NCBI GenBank assembly: GCA_963921795.1
Contig: OY997655.1
Span: 8,530,322 to 8,594,321 of the forward strand
DNA length: 64,000 nucleotides
Origin: Nannobrachium achirus
Lineage: Eukaryota > Chordata > Actinopteri > Myctophiformes > Myctophidae
Direction: 5' to 3'
Part shown: positions 1,129-63,597 of the stretch, piece after piece
Position numbering within the stretch: position 1 is the stretch's first letter
Layout: the number at the start of each line of letters is the position of its first letter
Notes under the pieces: model-generated
Database searches by the model: none
Told to the model about the DNA's origin: nothing
What the model saw: the letters and a program-made list of their open reading frames with translations, nothing else
Program-made: the position numbers and the translations under genes

Positions 1129-1567
1129 AAGGGGTCTTCAACGATTTTCAGGCCAAGGATCGCTTGAGAGAACGATGAAGCAGGGATCCCTGCTATGAAA
1201 TGTTTCCATACATTCCATTCGTTCCATAGTTTGACATCACGATCATCACTGTATTTTGGATTGATTTTAAAGTGTAATTTCACTTAAACCACGTTACTTT
1301 GTAAACTGGACCTTTCATTCTGTACTTTCTGTCTGCTCTTTCTTCCCTCTCCAGAAAACCTCTTTTCTGAAAATAGACGATCTACAAGCTCACAATGCCT
1401 CGCAGTGCCAGCTCATAGATCTGCTATTTTTTTGGCTAAAGTTCTCCTCAGAATTTGGACGCTGTTGGGTCCAAGTGGTTCATGTAAAAAAAATTAAGTT
1501 GCTATAACACAGAGGTAGTAACTCTGAGGACACCTAGGGGTCCCGGACCCCCCGTTGAAGACCCCTG
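1129..1567. mobile_element. hAT-like non-autonomous element, GGGGTCTTCAAC family
   Basis: It begins with AGGGGTCTTCAACG and ends GTTGAAGACCCCTG, a terminal inverted repeat of hAT type shared with 6951-8447, 30806-31232, 32072-32528 and 42488-42912. It is diverged and no clear 8-bp target duplication is visible. A degraded copy of the window's recurrent hairpin lies at 1370-1431. Confidence 0.8.
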
Positions 1568-2166
1568 ATTCAGCGTTAACCACCAGCTAGCAGGGCGTTC
1601 TGTTCCATCTGCCCCCTCCCCTCTGATAGAGACCCATGTCACCATGACATCTGCCTGCATGGGATCCTGTTGGTTTTATTCGCAATTAATGTGAAAATGT
1701 CACCGCTTTGAAGGAGCTCCTTTTTTCTCTCTCTCTCTCTCTCTCTCTCTCTCGCTCTCTCCTTTGCCCTCCCTTCACGTTTTCTTCAGTTCTCTCTGTC
1801 CTCCCCTGCTTTCCTATCTAACCTCGTAAACGGCACACTGTGCCTGGTGGAGTCATCATTAAAACACGCCGATACAAAACTACAAAGTAAATTGGTTTGA
1901 ACATTTGCTTCTAATTATCATGTTTGCTGCCCTTAGCCCGACCACCAATATATTCCACTCTGTGTATCGGACTGATTCTTTTTTTGTGGCTGCACACGTC
2001 ACGCGATGCACACGATAAGTGTGAAAATAAGACGGCGACGTAGACATTACTGAACATTATGGGATGTAACTGTACTCTGCATGGGTTATGATGAGTAAAA
2101 TCTGCTTTTTAATCAACAAACCTGGAAGCACCAATCCACATGTTCGACCTGCGTTGCAACGCATCA
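1568..2166. other. Intronic stretch with a (CT)n tract
   Basis: The only recognised element is a pyrimidine microsatellite at about 1726-1762. The rest shows no exon, RNA gene or clear repeat. Confidence 0.5.
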
Positions 2167-2750
2167 CTTCATTTAGAACGGGTACACTATATTGTGTATC
2201 ATTATTTTATGCTTTAACTATTGAAAAATAGCAGATATACAAGCTCACAGCGCGGCACTGAGTGCCGCGCTGCGAGCTTGTAGATCTGCTATTTTTTGAA
2301 AAATCGTGAAAATTAGAATTTCTTCCCGATTCTATAAGTGTCTTTTGAATCCTTCTAAGATTTTTTGAAAAACCCTATGTTTCTATGTCGGCAATCTGGC
2401 CAGCCATCGTCAAAGAAAAGGTCCTTTTCACTTTAACTGGAGCTCAGTTAGTCTGTTCTTGAGAGACTACTATGTCAGTGGTTCTCAAACCTTTTCATGT
2501 GCAGGACCCCCAAAATTATATGTATTTGGCCACGGACCCCCATCTCAAAATATCTAGTTCCAGGGACCCCCCAGAAGAAAAATGAGTTACAAATGTTCGC
2601 TTTAAAAATATATTTATTCAAAGATTTGCACACATTTTCACGTTTTTTTCAAAAATAGCAGATCTACAAGCTCGCAGCGCGGCACTCGGTGCCGCGCTGT
2701 GAGCTTGTATATCTGCTATTTTTCAATAGCTAAAGCATTAAATAATGCTT
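2167..2750 (+). mobile_element. piggyBac-like TTAA-family element with two hairpins (diverged copy)
   Basis: Same family as 16101-16705 and 21161-21763: an AACGGGTACAC start, a hairpin at 2224-2297, a middle containing CAGTGGTTCTCAAACC at about 2478, and a second hairpin at 2651-2724. Both terminal TTAA sites are degraded in this copy. No transposase is encoded. Confidence 0.75.
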
Positions 2751-2800
2751 TAGCAGTTTGTGTGATTCTGATGTTGGCTTTTACAGTCCTGGGAAGTAAG

Positions 2801-3040
2801 CTCTCTCTCTCTCTCTCTCTCTCTCTCTCTCTCTGTGTCTCTCTCTCTCTCTCTCTCTCTCTCTCTCTCTCTCTCTCTCTCTCTCTCTCTGTGTGTCTCT
2901 CTCTCTCTCTCTCTCTGTGTCTCTCTCTCTCTCTCTCTCTCTCTCTCTCTCTCTCTCTCTCTCTCTCTCTCTCACTCTCTCTCTCCTCTCTCTCTCCCCC
3001 CCTCCCGCCCCCCCCTCCCCCCCCCCCCCCCTCCCCCCCA
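2801..3040. repeat. Long (CT)n microsatellite followed by a poly-C tract
   Basis: About 190 bp of nearly pure CT dinucleotides, interrupted by GTGT at several points, run into a C-rich tract at about 2996-3040. The SLSLS-type frames on plus and ERERE-type frames on minus are repeat artefacts. Confidence 0.95.
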
Positions 3041-3388
3041 TCACGCCCGTAATCATAGACCGGCGGCTGCATGGGAAAAGGTCAGCGGCGCTGATGGCTT
3101 CACAAGTCTAACATTAACATTGAACTTTGAGGGTCTTTGAACGCCAGCTTGGAGCTTCTGCTTCCAGACAAACATTCTGTTAAATCAAGTCAATTCGTCC
3201 TTGTTTTTGCTGCAGTCGTCCGTTAGGGCGTTACAAAGTCTGCTTGAGCCCACTCAGCACCCTTCCAGTTACGCCCCCCCCCTTAGTAAATCATGTTTTG
3301 GGGGTGAAAAATCAGTCGAAGTGTCTCTGGCCAATCACAGCGTGTCTTTCCCGGGACCTGCCCGAATCAGTGCTACGGTCCACTATCA

Positions 3389-61028: not shown

Positions 61029-61147
61029 CTATTATGATTTATTATAGGAGTGCAGAAAGGGCCCTGCTTGGCCACAGCTCTTCTCTTGAACGTATCCGAC
61101 ATGTTGTCTGGTTGCGTTCGTCTTCATGTTTGCTCATCATGGATAGT

Positions 61148-61657
61148 AACTTTGTAAGAACATTTACTCAACTACTGTACTGTACGTAATGTTGAGGTAC
61201 TTTGTAAGAACATTTACTCTACTACTGTACTGTACGTAATGTTGAGGTACTTTGTAAGAACATTTACTCTACTACTGTACTGTATGTAATGCTGAGGTAC
61301 TTTGTAAGAACATTTACTCTACTACTGTACTGTACGTAATGTTGAGGTACTTTGTAAGAACATTTACTCTACTACTGTACTGTACGTAATGTTGAGGTAC
61401 TTTGTAAGAACATTTACTCTACTACTGTACTGTACGTAATGTTGAGGTACTTTGTAAGAACATTTACTCTACTACTGTACTGTACGTAATGTTGAGGTAC
61501 TTTGTAAGAACATTTACTCAACTACTGTACTGTACGTAATGTTGAGGTACTTTGTAAGAACATTTACTCAACTACTGTACTGTACGTAATGTTGAGGTAC
61601 TTTGTAAGAACATTTACTCAACTACTGTACTGTACGTAATGCTGAGGTACTTTGTAA
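61148..61657. repeat. 50-bp minisatellite, about ten copies
   Basis: GTACTTTGTAAGAACATTTA recurs every 50 bp from about 61147; the unit ends ACTGTACTGTACGTAATGTT+GAG. Variation between units is only a few bases (ctct/ctca, acg/atg, gtt/gct). Very homogeneous, so young or actively homogenised. Confidence 0.97.
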
Positions 61658-62344
61658 AAAAAAGAATTGTAGGGAGGGCATGATTTCTACGGTGTCGATA
61701 AAGAGGTGTATTTCGACAGGGAAGTCATATTACACCCGGGGGTCTATTATAGTAATGTTAACTCCATAGACACATACAAAACAGATCAAGTATGGCACCG
61801 CCTCTTAACACTTTGGTTGCCAACCCCGAGTTTCCCGAGTTTGTATGGGTAGTGGGTACCCTACCTGTGCCAACCCCGAGTTTCCCGAGTTTGGGCCGTT
61901 TTTGAAAAAAAGAAAAAGAATTTCCAAGTGGATTTTTTTGTTAGAAAGCTGTGAACAGTGTGCACACGCGTGGTGCATGATCTAGGCATGGGGCGTGCAT
62001 GATCCGTGCACTATGAATTACATGGAAGTCTATGTAGACCATGGCATCGGGGACCTTCAAAGAGATTTAATTGATTGCAACGAGAGAGTTAACAAAATAA
62101 TGAATAAATGAAAACGCTGGAGGTGTTTTTCTCTTGAATACGTTGTCCCAGCATGTTGTCCTCAGGTCCTCGCTTTGCTTTCTTTCCCATGTCCTCACCA
62201 GCTCTGGGTCTGGTCTCCATGTCCTGACCAGGGACGTGCTGGGCCCCTGATTCAGCCCGGGAAAAAGAGTTGTAGAGGCCCTCATTTCCATTTCGGATCA
62301 TGACAAGTGACAAGCCAGTGGGCCAATTACATGAGTTATATTTC

Positions 62345-62590
62345 GTCGTTGTCGGGTGGAAACCTTGTTTGTCCATAACCATTTTAAAAATGATTTAAGC
62401 TAGTGAAAACAGCCGATCTACAAGCACACAACGTGTGCTTGTAGATCTGCTGTTTTCCCTACTTTTGTGAGACGGCCTTGTATGATGAAGCAGGGCTTTG
62501 CTTTTCGAAAAAATTAGGGTACCTACCCTATGGGATTTGAAACTTGGAGATACAAGGTTTCTGCCCGACAGTGACGATTTACTTGGTTGG
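62345..62590. mobile_element. Element of the GTCGGGTGGAAACCTTGT family with hairpin
   Basis: The left end 'cgttgtcgggtggaaacctt' is inverse to the right end 'aaggtttctgcccgacag'. The hairpin at 62403-62457 has the short CACAACGTGTG centre and outer arm GTGAAAACAGC. No target duplication was determined. Confidence 0.75.
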
Positions 62591-62708
62591 CCGCCCAGCC
62601 CCCAAAATGGAACGAAGGCAGATATTTTATTTTTATTTATTTTTTCCTAATGGCCGGCCTGGACCGGCCGGGAATGAAACGGCCTTTCGGGAGTTGTCCC
62701 GCTTTTCC

Positions 62709-63597
62709 TAGTCTCGCGAGGCCAGAGTGTTGCCTCCACGATTTGGGCAAATGCTCCCGGCATACAGTCTGGCAAACGGAAATAGAAACGATGAGTGCGA
62801 GATAAAGTGGATGTGACGCAACCGCTCCCTTGGTGCAGTAGCAACAACATGTCCTACTGGAAGCGTTATGTGTCCTTTCAATATTTCTGGGGACGTTATT
62901 TCATCTTTCTCTGGTGTTATTGGTGTTACTTCCATGATGTTTTCAAACGTTTTCTTAAACTATACACCCATAACAAGAATAGGCAGCTCGAATGACTTTG
63001 TCTGAGCTATTGTGTTTCTGTTATGTTTCCTATGGGACTACAGTTCAGTGCAGCAGTGGCTACTTCCCATACTCGCCGTTCGGGAGCTGCCGTTCCAGAC
63101 TCTATATAGCATTCGGAGATTGTGGAATAGTTGTCTGGCTACGCGAGACTACGGCCCTAGTAACTTTAGCTATTGAAAAATAGCAGATCTACAAGCTCAC
63201 AGTGCGGCACCGAGTGCCGCACTGCAAGCTTGTAGATCTGCTATTTTTGAAAAGTCGTGAAAATGTGTGAAAATCTTTGAATATATGTATTTTTTAAGTG
63301 AACATTTGTAACTCAAATTTTGCTTCTGGGGGGTCCCTGGAACTAGATGTTTTGAGATGGGGGGTCCGTGGCCAAATGCATATCATCTTGGGGGTCCTTG
63401 ACATGAAAAAGTTTGAGCATCACTGACATGGAAACATAGGTTTCTTGCACACATTTTCAAAAATGTTCTAAAATAGCAGATCTACAAGCTTGCAGCGCGG
63501 CACTCTGTGCCACGCTGTGAATTTGGTGTGATGCCCCTGGACAGCGCTACCGACTGTGCCAACGTGCCCCCTGTTTCTTGTTGGCTACGCGAGACTA
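62709..63597. mobile_element. TIR element TAGTCTCGCG with 9-bp target duplication, containing a second insertion
   Basis: Left end TAGTCTCGCGAGGCCAGA and right end TTGGCTACGCGAGACTA are flanked by exact CGCTTTTCC (62700-62708 and 63598-63606). A 9-bp duplication fits Mutator-like or Merlin-type elements; hAT would give 8. A second right-end-like copy, TCTGGCTACGCGAGACTA, lies at 63134-63151. Between the two right ends is a two-hairpin-family fragment. Confidence 0.8.
63166..63525 (-). mobile_element. Two-hairpin TTAA-family fragment, inverted, nested
   Basis: It runs from 'tagctattgaaaaatagcag', with hairpin 63175-63248 (AGTGCGGCACCG), through 'ccgtggccaaatgcatatc' to a second hairpin 63468-63524 that breaks off before its right outer arm. 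TTAA ends are lost. Confidence 0.8.

Follow-up and report, generated by a model that had tools for sequence, protein, structure and literature searches.

The window described here is a 64-kb stretch of the Nannobrachium achirus genome (assembly GCA_963921795.1, contig OY997655.1, positions 8,530,322 to 8,594,321; G000:C18:8530322-8594321) which contains miniature inverted-repeat transposable elements (MITEs) of hAT-like and piggyBac-like type, carrying in their interior a common palindromic hairpin of 71 bp. A search at ≤3 mismatches places the hairpin arm, AAAATAGCMGATCTACAAGC, at 63 sites of the window, none being expected (0 in 100 shuffles). Pairing of the arms by script at ≤5 mismatches gave 32 paired hairpins and 15 lone arms, and 23 of the 31 strong palindromes of the window contain the hairpin core. 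By our assignment 17 of the 32 pairs belong to a single piggyBac-like family (host A), which has two inverted hairpins per element; the remaining hosts are lettered as in Table 1. A first-pass annotation of the window had described a palindrome recurring about forty times; this count was fair, and all 21 positions which it listed lie ≤4 bases from the start of a script-paired hairpin.

The palindromic module is real, genome-wide and common to many DNA transposon families. Across the assembly of 1,658,514,493 bp the exact arm has 197,510 matches (98,658 forward, 98,852 reverse), against 0 and 0 for the reversed-pattern control over 1.66 Gb; together with the shuffles this control rules out a chance origin of the arm repeats. 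An unselected sample of 200 kb, taken as 10 kb at 5.00 Mb on each of contigs C1-C20 so that hairpin-rich places were not chosen, held 45 palindromes, 32 of them the hairpin (29 by script and three by eye, at L035:6593, L048:2583 and L048:5632; L numbers denote fetched loci). The 13 others include two simple repeats that passed the filter. The density of ~160 hairpins per Mb would, if the sample is typical, amount to a few hundred thousand genome-wide, and the copy number is in the order of a hundred thousand.

The arm was also sought outside the genome. No viral contig carries it. Marinomonas sp. TW1 has one exact but unpaired copy, no hairpin being present across the 220 bases inspected, and by our arithmetic ~0.9 such matches are expected in 257 Gb by chance; a bacterial or viral source was rejected. 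Within the fish genome the arm recurs every roughly 8 kb in G000:C1:2317914-2366892, so the hairpin seems to have a place in a large tandem unit as well, and at L015:628-747 a part of the arm, CAGCAGATCTACAAGC, has become a 25-bp tandem repeat of five units.

The hosts are defined by their ends. The mark of a hAT-like MITE is an 8-bp target-site duplication (TSD) beside inverted ends of the CAG or TAG type, and eight end kinds among the hairpin hosts show this with a TSD of 8/8. Host A shows the TTAA target and CCC-type inverted ends of piggyBac-like MITEs (L011 and window 60449-61028). Nine end kinds from two superfamilies are thus supported, which bears out the earlier view that one hairpin resides in many end-defined families. 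Seven host ends had been named at that time. Matching ends with target duplications, in the window or in fetched loci, were found for CAGTGGTTCTCAACC, GGGGTCTTCAAC, GGGCAACT and TTAACCC; TAGGGATGGGACGATA (L042, TSD 7/8) and ACTTGAGTA (7/8, within a repeated motif) are weakly supported. The independence of GTCGGG as an element was not confirmed; copies related to it lie inside a CAGGGGTTCCCAAA element in L034 and L046. A general scan of the window and L031-L050 (264 kb) for ends and TSDs returned 30 hits, compared with 13-22 at shifted-offset controls, so the hAT-like support comes from the recurrence of ends whose type is known. Few copies represent hosts D, F, L038 and others; the full-length pattern of host E2 (AACTAGTG N45-75 CACTACTTTTGTGCG) is found at 11,679 places (5,774 + 5,905), giving at least 11,679 copies. 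Of 1653 candidates in the genome, 150 matches to the hAT dimerisation domain were scored; they include hAT genes with long open frames, for example at G000:C13:57533457, C3:7271760 and C18:4830142. From 214 filtered open frames of the window and fetched loci the 11 longest were taken, and 10 of them (a tandem-repeat frame was skipped) yielded no transposase near the hairpins; these comprise three zinc fingers, two reverse transcriptases, one integrase and four frames of no family.

The same hairpin unit is present in 28 host groups, with the full 71 bp in 17; some of these groups are single, decayed or related copies. In the 17 consensuses of the 71-bp form conservation is 0.82-1.0 at arm positions 0-24 except for positions 8 (A or C; 0.62), 12 (0.76) and 23 (0.76), and 0.62-0.82 at the inner positions 25-33; flank bases 7-12 are random. 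The mean difference among all 17 is 0.189 for outer arms, 0.334 for inner arms and 0.682 for 12-bp flanks, and among the seven main host consensuses it ranges over 0-0.23 (outer) and 0-0.39 (inner). The first-pass annotation had called the outer arm constant and the inner arm family-specific yet self-complementary. Both descriptions hold, the former in the 63 window arms and the host consensuses alike, the latter in that inner arms differ between hosts and mostly still self-pair: the 40-bp stem of 16 representatives shows 39 two-sided changes versus 23.6 when shuffled (2/500) and 15-20 in slid controls. The family-specific palindromic flanks which it also reported are limited to bases 1-6 (0.506 versus 0.311 permuted, 0 of 2000; 28 host groups) and do not extend above chance to bases 7-12 (0.298 versus 0.267, p 0.22). 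An earlier test with partners swapped among all copies had shown no palindromy of the whole flank (0.139 versus 0.143 at score 8); that test was confounded by same-family copies, and the later one took one copy per host.

Divergence within families, when computed from arm-selected copies (outer arms 0.045-0.10, flanks 0.055-0.48), was biased and was replaced by that of flank-found copies. Flank-only profiles gave 28 C-side places, 26 of which abut a hairpin arm (by eye); 27 were used, L045 being dropped because its match starts late. The host B consensus derives from 18 copies including one poor match (L021), and the rates from the eight in unselected loci, where the arm is off consensus at 4/152 sites and the flank at 38/486 (our arithmetic), making the arm the slower part in this small sample. 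Arms were scored at the best of three registers; the 11 mismatches of L025:78 reflect a register fault. At the variable position 8, 102 hairpins comprise 32 with A and C mixed, 52 AA (34 of host A), 12 CC and 6 others; host B alone has AA 3, AC 6, CC 6 and AT 1. The recurrence of the A/C pair in many hosts argues for one ancestor. In B (6/6 mixed copies, by eye) and in F (4/4, two being neighbouring near-copies) it is always the same flank that lies on the A arm.

In some hosts with different ends the homology reaches beyond the hairpin. Sequences running outward from the hairpin edge were chosen by eye and compared pairwise (36 sides, 630 pairs; 99.9% null score of 16 from shuffled flanks); homologous stretches of 9-60 bp, with scores of 18-60, define two clades. 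One comprises B, F, L019, L006, L023, L026, L036 and L042 (scores 18-60, up to 60 bp), the other E1, E2, window 14488, L037, L038 and L041, the last through 9 bp only. Host B is 70-84% like other members of its clade over 48-58 aligned bp (z 2.1-10), with the arm differing at 0-2 of 19 positions. The flanks of A, C and D have no strong homology to other hosts. Descent of all hosts from one hairpin-bearing ancestor, which would have overturned the first reading of the window, is seen for the core within two clades and is not seen for the ends. Nesting is visible, at one end: in L032 and L050 the sequence after a piggyBac-like, TTAA-bearing end is that of the CAGGGGCGTCAC hAT, and L029 has this hAT with two hairpins and without the piggyBac-like end. 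The hairpin at L048:3954 has a B side and an F side, and the right edge of a 2.8-kb tandem duplication (L048:1254-7072, 98.1% identity) lies ≤2 bp from the hairpin end at this junction. In L016 B-type flank stands on both sides of the hairpin, the right one being 73% like B. Both loci suggest exchange at the hairpin.

The hairpin edges and short forms bear on whether the palindrome spreads itself, as had been proposed along with a check for target duplications. No duplication of 3, 4 or 8 bp is common to the 28 host groups under any edge definition (p 0.46, 0.29 and 0.42). Three bases outside the edge, 8/28 groups have a 2-bp direct repeat versus 3.56 permuted (p 0.003, uncorrected for 224 definitions), and in four of the eight this repeat is TA (TA-GTG...CAC-TA; E1, E2, L034, L038); one 7-bp definition gives 3 versus 0.46 (p 0.003, uncorrected). 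Short E2 forms (AACTAGTG N0-30 CACTACTTTTGTGCG) occur at 438 places (225 + 213). Among the first 100 listed, 62 are simple deletions, all across the centre and 50 of them distinct, with a mean microhomology of 2.0 versus 0.40 for random breakpoints; the other 38 bear additional changes. None of the 100 is a clean empty site, and there are never <6 bases between the flanks; the pattern demands that GTG and CAC be kept, so that sites without either would escape. In the window and fetched loci the sole flank match to reach the hairpin edge without any hairpin, L045:8377, is ambiguous. With short forms that are centre deletions and no clean empty site among the 100 listed, the E2 hairpin looks ancestral and decaying by deletion of the palindrome centre. 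The self-spreading palindrome thus found no support at its edges or in its short forms; moreover, some hosts have more than the hairpin in common and one carrier is nested in another.

The reading we favour, with evenly balanced confidence, is that a single ancestral palindromic core was handed passively between MITEs and multiplied by the transposase of each host. The core of ~71 bp, with arms of ~35-40 bp, would have entered the interior of non-autonomous DNA transposons when a hairpin-bearing MITE inserted into another, of which one nested pair is visible, and probably also through capture or exchange in repair or replication, where a fork or filled gap may stall at the palindrome and switch template. 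The new host would copy the hairpin by means of its own hAT-type or piggyBac-type transposase, and the hairpin itself appears to lack autonomous movement. In resting copies the palindrome, unstable as DNA, would lose its centre, in many cases where short repeats occur. Across hosts the 20-bp outer arm would stay near constant as the inner arm and first flank bases change in paired fashion. The likeliest cause of this constancy is homogenisation by exchange and arm-to-arm correction among many copies, to which selection in active source elements possibly adds; a role of the arm in propagation is possible, and its constancy leaves room for function.

Several observations weigh against this reading. 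A capture event with both donor and empty host was not caught. Among the distant hosts A, B, C and D the hairpin edge marks an abrupt end of likeness, with flank bases 7-12 no more alike than by chance, as expected of a precise mobile unit. The score-18 links (B-F, F-L026 and L041 with its 9 bp) are weak given 630 pairs, and the D-E2 pair, outside both clades, likewise scores 18. The F block of L048 is 81.8% alike, hairpin included, so that the duplication was not one clean event. Outside host A mixed position 8 is found in 32/62 A/C hairpins versus 30.7 for independent arms, and its polarity is opposite between the D copies L001-L004 and L036, as also in the L048 chimera. Arm conservation within B copies hints at constraint or correction. 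The TSDs and ends were the best picks per hairpin, taken with no control, and chance 8/8 picks were also returned (L003, L018).

It is conceivable, if on the unlikely side, that the hairpin is a functional propagation module, a counterpart among DNA transposons of the conserved cores of short interspersed elements, in which inverted pairs of the 20-bp arm are recognised by a protein or a cruciform aids excision, re-replication or escape from silencing, so that carrier MITEs out-multiply others. The outer arms are less diverged than the inner arms and flanks among host consensuses, both outer and inner stem keep paired change, the copy number is very high, and 8 of the 13 hAT-like elements with matching ends and an exact TSD in the 264 kb hold the hairpin or one arm. 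The other five lack it, however, the distance between the hairpin and the left end of its host ranges from about 40 bp to 785 bp, and most hairpins were found via the arm itself, which inflates its constancy. A bolder form of this idea, in which the palindrome is portable, acts in cis and makes copying more successful for any host transposon whichever transposase that host uses, so that as a parasite of parasites it would have reached at least nine end-defined families in two superfamilies via nesting and template switches at its own cruciform, we regard as doubtful.

A mobile palindromic element that inserts into transposons, by a transposase of its own or by a single-strand mechanism without target duplication, would explain the sharp edges between distant hosts, the huge copy number and the excess of 2-bp and 7-bp repeats. 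We consider it improbable, as hosts share no edge duplication of 3, 4 or 8 bp, the 100 listed E2 short forms include no clean empty site, L045:8377 is ambiguous, and the TA cases belong to one clade or are similar in flank, TA being in any case self-palindromic. Only slight probability attaches to common descent of all hosts from an old hAT that already bore the hairpin and retained it as its ends and interior diverged: flank homology in two clades and the common position-8 polarity in B and F speak for it, but drift would not be expected to turn a hAT into a piggyBac-like host with TTAA, the A, C and D flanks stand apart and the polarity is opposite between two sets of D copies. It is very unlikely that the hairpin persists for the sake of its RNA, which would fold into a hairpin and give rise to small RNAs or double-stranded RNA. 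Its fold is very stable (six hairpins, folded as DNA, z -6 to -18), but palindromes fold by definition so that stability says little, and all of the window's 34 Rfam matches with E ≤1 fall short of the curated cut-offs of known RNA families, microRNA precursors included.

A constant central block between otherwise unrelated heads and tails is familiar from the core domains (CORE, V, Deu) of short interspersed elements, which are RNA-copied; here the constant block is the palindromic interior of DNA transposons. The closest precedent, to judge from the available part of its description, is found in the CMITEs of Acropora corals (PMC2872659). These MITE families, whose terminal repeats differ, enclose one highly conserved interior of ~75 bp and have TTAA duplications, piggyBac-like ends and an estimated 1600 or so copies; the authors of that study ask whether the interior aids transposition. 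The hairpin hosts likewise combine different ends with one conserved block. In contrast to the CMITEs, the block is a long palindrome, its hosts are hAT-like as well as piggyBac-like, and copies are in the order of 10^5; with 8-bp duplications at eight of the nine supported end kinds, the hosts are not confined to TTAA and piggyBac-like elements, and the words "hairpin" and "palindrome" are absent from the CMITE main text (PMC2872659). In the part of the account at hand, Angel of zebrafish is a high-copy fish DNA element whose long inverted repeats fold to a stem-loop with paired changes (PMC3636048); by that description it is one transposon family, whereas the hairpin is an internal module of many. 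Pack-TIRs, as far as their account was available, are DNA transposons, most commonly hAT, that gain foreign interior by gap filling and template switching and sometimes amplify it (PMC8277862); their cargo is duplicated non-transposon sequence, mostly single copy, unlike one palindrome in many families. A palindrome common to hAT-like and piggyBac-like families is not described in the available parts of these three accounts, nor is the hairpin among the matches listed by literature searches, and six hairpin strings had no match in a text search of 5.39 million papers. Should the hairpin be of help to its hosts, non-autonomous DNA transposons would possess an amplification signal that can be transferred between them, and why some MITEs, such as host E2, reach 10^4 copies and more would become directly testable. 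If it is a mere hitchhiker, it would offer a very large natural record of long-palindrome recombination and decay in a vertebrate-like genome, as the short forms of one host family illustrate.

Table 1. Hairpins and host elements of the window, and supported host end kinds (TIR, terminal inverted repeat)
Feature	Position	Strand	Remarks
hAT-like MITE, 440 bp, CAGTGGTTCTCAACC ends, holds hairpin	3389..3828		TIR 16/16, TSD CACTATCA 8/8
Host C hairpin, position 8 = C on both arms	3634..3704		DNA fold -47.5 kcal/mol, z -17.9
Second host C copy, hairpin	28904..28974		
Host B, GGGGTCTTCAAC-type hAT MITE	32072..32528	+	TSD CCGTAGAA/CCATAGAA, 7/8
Host B hairpin (in element 32072..32528)	32324..32394		folded as DNA
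Host B copy, hairpin centre lost	42488..42912	-	TIR 14/16, TSD 7/8; hairpin remnant 42611-42647
Host B hairpin	31039..31109		element starts 30806, right end degraded
Diverged host B copy, hairpin	1370..1430		
Host A, piggyBac-like, two inverted hairpins	60449..61028		TTAA at both ends
Hairpin 1 of host A element 60449..61028	60493..60563		
Hairpin 2 of host A element 60449..61028	60910..60968		shortened centre
Host A, TTAA ends	16101..16705		hairpins 16154-16217 (damaged), 16591-16661
Hairpin 1 of host A element (about 2170-2750)	2225..2295		
Hairpin 2 of host A element (about 2170-2750)	2652..2722		inverted
Hairpin 1 of host A element (about 21160-21764)	21223..21293		
Hairpin 2 of host A element (about 21160-21764)	21649..21719		
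Host A hairpin	19885..19955		element about 19460-20003
Host A hairpin	40211..40281		element about 40150-40702, right end lost
Host A hairpin	63177..63247		20-bp arms both exact
Host D (GGGCAACTTTGATGATGG hAT) hairpin	20453..20523		palindrome extends to 20448-20528; folded as DNA
Host E1 (AGGGATGGGACGATAAGTG) hairpin	15150..15198		centre shortened
Host E2 (GTCGGGTGGAAACCTTGT) hairpin	62406..62456		centre shortened; flanks common to E1
Host F (TAGGGATGGGACGATATG) hairpin	43528..43598		
Decayed hairpin in ACTTGAGTA host	35610..35668		
hAT-like end CAGTGGTTCTCAACC	window 3389-3828		8/8 TSD
hAT-like end CAGGGGTCTTCAAC	L034, L046		8/8 TSD
hAT-like end CAGGGGTGGGCAACT	L001, tandem copies		8/8 TSD, ends 11/16
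hAT-like end CAGCGCTACTCAACCC	L019		8/8 TSD
hAT-like end CAGGGGCGTCACA	L029		8/8 TSD
hAT-like end CAGGGGTTCCCAAA	L034, L046		8/8 TSD
hAT-like end TAGGGCTGTCACGATA	L046		8/8 TSD
hAT-like end CAGAGCCCTGCAACGGGC	L049		8/8 TSD
piggyBac-like end TTAACCC	L011, window 60449-61028		TTAA

Other repeats accompany the hairpin hosts in the window. A long tandem array of ~33-bp units, translating as RGYVHIRSYIE repeats, adjoins hairpin hosts at 37167-39526, and a second array (61149-61660) consists of ~50-bp units that are 97-98% alike. An unrelated inverted repeat with 61-bp arms and a 28-bp spacer is located at 5962-6111, its left part being present again at 53592-53740. Lastly, a reverse-transcriptase frame with an ALKBH8_N match (7173-8141, minus strand) lies between host-B-type ends (6951-8447).

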